Source of the DNA: Bacteroidia bacterium | GTDB lineage: Bacteria > Bacteroidota > Bacteroidia > CAILMK01 > JBBDIG01 | Assembly (NCBI GenBank): GCA_040880525.1 | Contig: JBBDIG010000038.1 | Coordinates: 57,575-111,079 of the forward strand | DNA: 53,505 bases | Reading direction: 5' to 3' | Notes under the pieces: generated by a model | What the model was told of the DNA's origin: nothing | Seen by the model: the letters and a program-made list of their open reading frames with translations, nothing else | Database searches by the model: none | Program-made: the position numbers and the translations under genes | In this document: one piece after another, positions 52,822-53,446 of the stretch | Numbering within the stretch: the first letter of the stretch is position 1 | Layout of the letters: each line of letters opens with the position of its first letter

Positions 52822-52845
52822 TGGCGCGAACATCAGCTCGTGCCT
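52822..52845 (+). repeat. REP-like imperfect hairpin (copy B)
   Basis: TGGCGCGA and CTCGTGCC can pair with one mismatch. Twenty-one of 24 positions equal the complement of the copy at 53423-53446, so the two face each other across the transposase remnant. Confidence 0.75.
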
Positions 52846-52854
52846 AACGCCCGC

Positions 52855-53362
52855 TTAGGCAATTAGCTTAACACCTGCCAGCAGCCCCTTCCCTCCGCTA
52901 TAGTCCAATGCACTGCTGTATAACCAATGATGCGGCTCAGCCACCAACCCTGCCTTCACAGGGTTTACATGAATGTAATCAAGCTTTTGCTGTATCATTT
53001 CATTGGTGCTCAATTCAATTGGGTTATTGTGTTGCTGCCAAAATTGAAAGCCTTTGTTGTGCTTGTTCTTTTTTTCAGCCCTTTCCATCATCCAAAGCAT
53101 CCATTCCCTGCGGCTTTCCTGCGGGTGCATTTGGATCAGTTCCCTCAGCTTGGTGGCAGTGTGCCTTTTCATATCCCGCAGGATATTTTGGGTATGAGAC
53201 CTCCAAGGTTTTCAAAACCTTGGAGGTCTGGGTAAAGTAGCACCAGCTATCCATTAGCAGTTCTTTGTACTCGTCCTTTATGAATACACCTAGCCAGTTC
53301 AACACGGTAAAACTGATGAAGTGCAATCCTTCCTGGTTATGGAACTTATATTTTCTGCTCAT
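52855..53362 (-). pseudogene. Broken REP-associated tyrosine transposase (RAYT, Y1_Tnp family)
   Basis: The N-terminal part (ATG 53362: SRKYKFHNQEGLHFISFTVLNWLGVF ... LLMDSWCYFTQ) and the C-terminal part (QNILRDMKRHTATKLRELIQ, PQESRREWMLWMMERA, FQFWQQHNNPIEL, KLDYIHVNPVKAGLV...HHWLYSSALDYSGGKG) are in different frames. They meet at a 31-bp palindrome (53198-53228). Intact relatives, as I recall them, carry about 30 residues there that include the HUH metal-binding motif (NHVH-type), which is absent. The DYIH Tyr thought to be catalytic remains. The copy cannot be an active transposase. Flanking inverted hairpins make this a decayed REPtron. Confidence 0.85.
53198..53228. repeat. Perfect 15-bp-arm palindrome inside the RAYT remnant
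   Basis: GACCTCCAAGGTTTT and its exact complement are separated by one base. It has the same CTCCAAGG core as 2197-2229. It occupies the place of the missing central segment of the transposase and throws the two halves out of frame. Confidence 0.92.
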
Positions 53363-53422: not shown

Positions 53423-53446
53423 AGGCACGAGCGAATGCTCGCGCCA
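53423..53446 (-). repeat. REP-like imperfect hairpin (copy C, inverted relative to B)
   Basis: AGGCACGAGC and GCTCGCGCCA pair with one mismatch around GAAT. It is the inverted near-copy of 52822-52845 and lies 61 bases upstream of the transposase start. Confidence 0.75.

Follow-up and report, generated by a model that had tools for sequence, protein, structure and literature searches.

REP sequences, i.e., short palindromes that occur in several dispersed copies and are linked to the gene of a REP-associated tyrosine transposase (RAYT), are known in several arrangements. In subclass 2.4 (RAYT group 4), REPs are located inside the tnpA-REP genes themselves, in frame, in a variable loop between HuH and Y, and the same repeats flank the genes; in that subclass the HUH motif is kept, the repeats have a GT[AG]G foot and the members include Bacteroidetes (PMC6006769). 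Subclass 2.6 (RAYT group 5), which is mostly found in Bacteroidetes, is characterized by an HUH motif of the form NH[LIV]H, by WQ and YIH[QN]NP motifs followed by a serine-rich extension, and by atypical flanking hairpins without the GT[AG]G foot (PMC6006769). REPs are found also in the genes of error-prone DNA polymerases, of tRNA synthetases and of other proteins, where they are, as are the Rickettsia palindromic elements, short palindromes in frame (PMC3733652). In REPINs, two inverted hairpin units, served by a RAYT, form a longer palindrome (PMC3116915).

The RAYT gene considered here is located near the end of the window, i.e., the whole stretch of 53,505 nucleotides that was analysed. 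The findings share with subclass 2.4 a palindromic repeat in a RAYT just past the HUH motif, repeats that also flank genes, and hosts among the Bacteroidetes. The window RAYT differs from that subclass in that its HUH motif is gone, its reading frame is broken, and its palindrome lacks a GTAG foot and goes with another RAYT type.

A RAYT gene without its HUH segment

The gene is found on the minus strand in two parts. The N-terminal half (MSRKYKFHNQEG...DSWCYF, residues 1−43; positions 53234−53362, in the open reading frame 53075−53362) covers positions 6−48 of an HMM of 77 intact relatives and gives a tblastn-type match to intact paralogs of the same genome. The C-terminal half (HTQNILRDMKRHT...; positions 52855−53196) covers HMM positions 77−182; its open reading frame extends over 52855−53172, with in-frame homology from about 53196, and the order in translation is NILRDMKRHT...FWQQHN...YIHVNP...YSSA. 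It matches NF047646, the REP-associated tyrosine transposase family, with an E value of 7e-13, which is below the cut-off because the match is partial. These motifs, i.e., WQ (in FWQQ), YIHVNP with V at the variable place and SSA (in YSSA) after them, together with the Bacteroidota host and flanking hairpins without GTAG, identify the gene, as judged from its sequence, as a broken member of TnpA-REP subclass 2.6 (RAYT group 5), of Bacteroidetes type. It differs from this subclass in being a pseudogene without HUH and in carrying a palindrome that the intact members lack.

The initial annotation of this DNA had proposed that a segment of about 30 residues bearing the HUH motif was lost, and alignment to intact relatives bears this out. 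Between the halves 28 HMM positions (49−76) are missing, the HUH motif included; in 57 of the 67 measurable relatives the absent stretch amounts to 28−30 residues with the HUH motif within it, and comparison with the intact paralog L003 of the same genome gives the same picture. The motif itself reads SHVH in that paralog and NHVH in other relatives, and the NH[LIV]H of subclass 2.6 is absent from the window RAYT together with the deleted segment. The two halves are, in addition, in different frames, i.e., there is a frameshift besides the missing segment, and the palindrome that separates them contains a TGA when read in the frame of the C-terminal half. Because the HUH segment is missing and the frames differ, with a stop codon in the palindrome, the window RAYT is dead by two criteria. 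The intact RAYTs of the genome are near-identical tandem pairs on two contigs (L003/L004, C48:51147−52274; L008/L009, C29:1066−4467).

The palindrome AGACCTCCAAGGTTTTCAAAACCTTGGAGGTCT at positions 53197−53229 is perfect, REP-like and a member of a covarying 33-bp family, with loop TCCAA/TTGGA; its 27-bp core is found identically in four other genomes. A perfect palindrome between the RAYT halves had been annotated before with a length of 31 bp, which is the inner part of the 33 bp: with 16-bp arms around a 1-nt centre there is one more pair on each side. Its 25-bp core is expected to have no match in the shuffled window, and such shuffles exclude chance as its origin. The palindrome is not present at the same place in functional full-length relatives. 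A search of the genome yielded, besides intact paralogs such as L003, about 7−9 related palindromes, all of 33 bp and with different arm sequences. One of these, perfect and intergenic, is located in the window at 2197−2229 (AACCCTCCAAGGGTTCAGAACCCTTGGAGGGTT), and a degenerate relative, in which only the core with three mismatches is found, at 2249−2275. The exact palindrome was absent from viral contigs, and a literature search with its sequence returned only unrelated matches of primer type. A different sequence feature of the window, a tandem-like array of several copies of units of about 120 bp (aaaacttcgtgaaccttgtgcgttcc...), occupies positions 1−640.

The palindrome may have no causal connection to the deletion, i.e., the gene may have been decaying as a pseudogene and have lost its core by an ordinary deletion first, with the palindrome inserted afterwards at this scar or next to it. 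RAYTs evidently decay in this genome anyway, as seen from other truncated remnants without a nearby palindrome (L018, L022, L025, L011), and the window RAYT is frameshifted; against two unlinked events, the position of the palindrome coincides exactly with the deletion junction, a few bases at most from sequence that can be aligned on either side, and we regard this course as rather unlikely. Microhomology was considered as well: the arm CTTGGAGGT really matches the GLEV codons of the paralog L018, and this candidate was dropped because the offset differs by three codons and an ancestral sequence for comparison is lacking.

The window RAYT is flanked by hairpins of a different kind. Downstream, at 52822−52844 (plus strand), a hairpin (TGGCGCGAACATCAGCTCGTGCC) is found that is probably the gene's own REP-like end, and its inverted partner (TGGCGCGAGCATTCGCTCGTGCC) is located 62 bp upstream of the RAYT, at 53424−53446 (minus strand); these are two matches in the window where 0.02 are expected. 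The hairpins are of the form TGGCGCGAG...CTCGTGCC, and the same hairpin is found beside the closest paralog remnant, L011. Such an inverted pair agrees with the description of subclass 2.6 as a mostly Bacteroidetes group with atypical hairpins that lack GTAG (PMC6006769), and, from the sequence, the window RAYT probably served these hairpins, which are unrelated to the 33-bp palindrome. In Pontibacter, RAYTs of the window type are located near other hairpins (AAGCGGCAGCCATACTTTGGCTGCCGCTT; loci L074, L084, L087, L095 and L097), which are likely their cognate repeats. The inverted pair around the gene also bears on a possible assembly artefact, in which two RAYT fragments would have been joined via the palindrome. 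The window ends with the contig (111079 bp), 143 bp past the RAYT, i.e., in a region where such errors could be suspected; neither half, however, has a highly similar copy in the rest of the assembly (best matches 57% for the N-terminal and 79% for the C-terminal half), and with the hairpins in place on both sides an artefact is very unlikely.

A family of covarying 33-bp palindromes

The palindromes of the family have the architecture AAnnn-N5-nnnTT-NNN-AAnnn-N5'-nnnTT, are perfect and exactly 33 bp long, have covarying arms and are found in Bacteroidota. Each is composed of two 15-nt units that are mutual reverse complements with a spacer of 3 nt between them; either unit forms a small hairpin of its own (AAnnn-N5-nnnTT). 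In a pattern search that allowed any loop, 60 of the 395 genomes of the class proved to contain copies, with up to 33 per genome, while a control pattern gave two matches. Even though this search does not require the loops to be complementary, the free 5-nt loops are fully complementary in 51 of the 66 distinct 33-mers listed, which represent 17 loop types. At 124 sites the pairing falls from about 1.0 to background just beyond 33 bp; because these sites were selected for inner pairing, only the outer drop is informative. A GTAG or CGTC foot tag is absent, and all listed copies start with A[AG]nnn and end with nnn[CT]T.

There is no signal of target-site duplication around the family: 5-bp repeats were found 15 times as compared to 8 in shuffles, and longer ones are not enriched. 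A GGGTA repeat at the window palindrome is therefore weak evidence, given that 5-bp repeats are only slightly more frequent than in shuffles. Lack of target-site duplication is expected for enzymes of the RAYT class.

Several members reside inside genes other than RAYTs. In the genome of the window, a gene for a DnaE-type DNA polymerase (L065 1498−1821, G000:C60:48950−49273) has three different 33-bp palindromes in frame within its first 200 codons, and these are absent from relatives; one of these sites suggests a short replacement, as judged against relatives that are distant. Between two of the palindromes (L065 1540−1640) there is another inverted repeat (CCCCCTCAAGGGGGGA ... TCCCCTTGAGGGGAC), i.e., a second repeat family in this gene. 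In another genome (G141) a clean in-frame insertion of 33 bp is found in the essential isoleucyl-tRNA synthetase gene, ileS (L204 2057−2089; compared with PDB 8c8w). Most other genic palindromes also look like in-frame additions with little or no loss, as judged from IleRS and from the RAYT loop lengths. That palindromes replace sequence rather than add to it was considered and rejected; the RAYT loops show no difference in length (p 0.63).

The DnaE-type and IleRS sites resemble the intragenic REPs and the Rickettsia palindromic elements (PMC3733652), and the two inverted hairpins resemble REPINs (PMC3116915). The family differs from the former in the absence of a GTAG or CGTC tag and in the constant 33 bp with two 15-nt inverted hairpins and a 3-nt spacer, and from the latter in being far shorter, with a spacer of 3 nt and perfect arms that covary between genomes. 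As the copies are short, palindromic and dispersed (about 7−9 in this genome and up to 33 elsewhere), they are likely, on the strength of their sequences, to be REP-like, non-autonomous elements of a known repeat kind, with a new architecture that lacks the GTAG foot; the main texts of open papers contained no description of a 33-bp covarying architecture without a GTAG or CGTC foot, and a prior description is possible. It is doubtful that they would constitute a separate, unrecognised class of mobile REPs in Bacteroidota, whose arms stay complementary under drift and which are carried by one RAYT type into rival RAYT genes, where they destroy the catalytic core.

Linkage of the family to NHFH-type RAYTs

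RAYTs of another type contain some of the sampled palindromes in frame, just past the HUH motif, and from an alignment of these RAYTs (A2) a profile of the NHFH-type RAYT (YHIxNRANG...NHFH) was built. Of 59 palindrome-bearing genomes, 35 gave strong relatives, as compared to 2 of the 20 other genomes (Fisher p 0.0002); in the remaining 24 of the 59 no strong NHFH-type RAYT was found. A 33-bp palindrome is found beside or inside 34 of 46 NHFH genes (18 upstream, 18 inside, 17 downstream); about four of the 34 are dubious by eye (L293, L296, L297, L308), which leaves about 30 that clearly belong to the family. In genome G359 (L316), a TCCAA palindrome like that of the window is located upstream of and inside a truncated NHFH-type RAYT. 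One of the two NHFH genomes among these 20 others (G025, L272) has perfect 33-bp palindromes of very different sequence (AGGTGTCCTACACCT...; at 1460 and 2082) on either side of its RAYT, at distances of 8 and 5 nt, like the ends of a minimal element.

As in subclass 2.4, the in-gene palindromes reside in a variable loop: 14 NHFH genes have palindromes in this loop, which otherwise is 32−69 residues long. The place aligned with WQ reads G[SNKA]LF[QNE], similar to the FQ variant of subclass 2.1, a comparison made to the published description rather than to reference sequences.

Beside RAYTs of the window type the family was not found in any of 69 control loci. These comprise 49 loci, nearly all of the window type, two of which have any 33-bp palindrome nearby, and 20 further non-NHFH RAYTs, mostly of the window type, from palindrome-bearing genomes, one of which has a terminator-like hairpin. 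The family is thus linked to a RAYT gene as REPs are, through the NHFH-type RAYTs that it flanks or enters, and not to the type of the window RAYT. From the sequences, RAYT activity may have mobilised the palindromes. In the genome of the window no strong NHFH-type RAYT was found with the A2 profile; its palindromes are orphans, or their cognate enzyme was lost or is unassembled.

The earlier proposal that the palindrome is a REP of the interrupted RAYT is contradicted by this linkage and by the gene's own, different hairpins. The same observations bear on strand slippage or self-targeting, through which the RAYT would have removed its own core via a REP inside its own gene. RAYTs act on hairpins and other RAYT types do carry intragenic REPs (PMC6006769), but palindromes of this type do not go with this kind of RAYT, and slippage usually deletes a palindrome, which here is perfect; this course, of which the slippage at a REP had also been suggested in the initial annotation, is extremely unlikely. 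Targeted insertion with deletion, its other suggestion, survives as a possible insertion with deletion, though not with the palindrome as a target of the RAYT's own type.

Proposed entry of a foreign palindrome with loss of the core

In NHFH-type RAYTs the palindromes occupy a loop of highly variable length that directly follows HUH and precedes the helix FSNxFxxYT, which is aligned with ILRDMKRHT. A profile comparison aligns this loop with the residues immediately preceding ILRDMKRHT in RAYTs of the window type, and the window palindrome has its C-side border there. Because the border coincides with the position of the NHFH loop, we propose that the palindrome entered that loop and that the HUH segment was lost with it or afterwards. 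The HUH segment would thus have been lost in an event that involved a non-autonomous 33-bp palindrome, whose cognate enzyme would be a RAYT of another type. The most likely point of entry is the surface loop that follows the HUH strand, where NHFH-type RAYTs carry their own palindromes; the adjoining 28 codons would have been deleted together with this entry or later. The dead gene has kept its own inverted hairpins on both sides. The evidence that couples the palindrome to the deletion is circumstantial; the account as a whole, in which a foreign palindrome entered the loop and 28 codons were deleted then or later, is nevertheless the one that we consider probable.

REPs inside RAYTs and other genes have been published, and new here are the pairing across RAYT types with loss of the core and an architecture of 33 bp that lacks the GTAG foot. 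The suggestion that this way of inactivation was undescribed therefore holds for loss of HUH with a REP of another type, not for REPs inside RAYTs, which have been described in frame and with HUH kept (PMC6006769); in the main texts of open papers no case was found in which a REP that belongs to one RAYT type stands where another type has lost its core. If correct, the account distinguishes a RAYT from a REP that simply happens to reside inside it: a RAYT of one type can come to contain a repeat of another type, which contributes to its destruction. The family also offers a ready data set, i.e., hundreds of 33-bp palindromes that have covarying arms, go with a single RAYT type and also lie in frame within genes such as that of isoleucyl-tRNA synthetase, for studies of how such repeats spread and of the identity of their arms.
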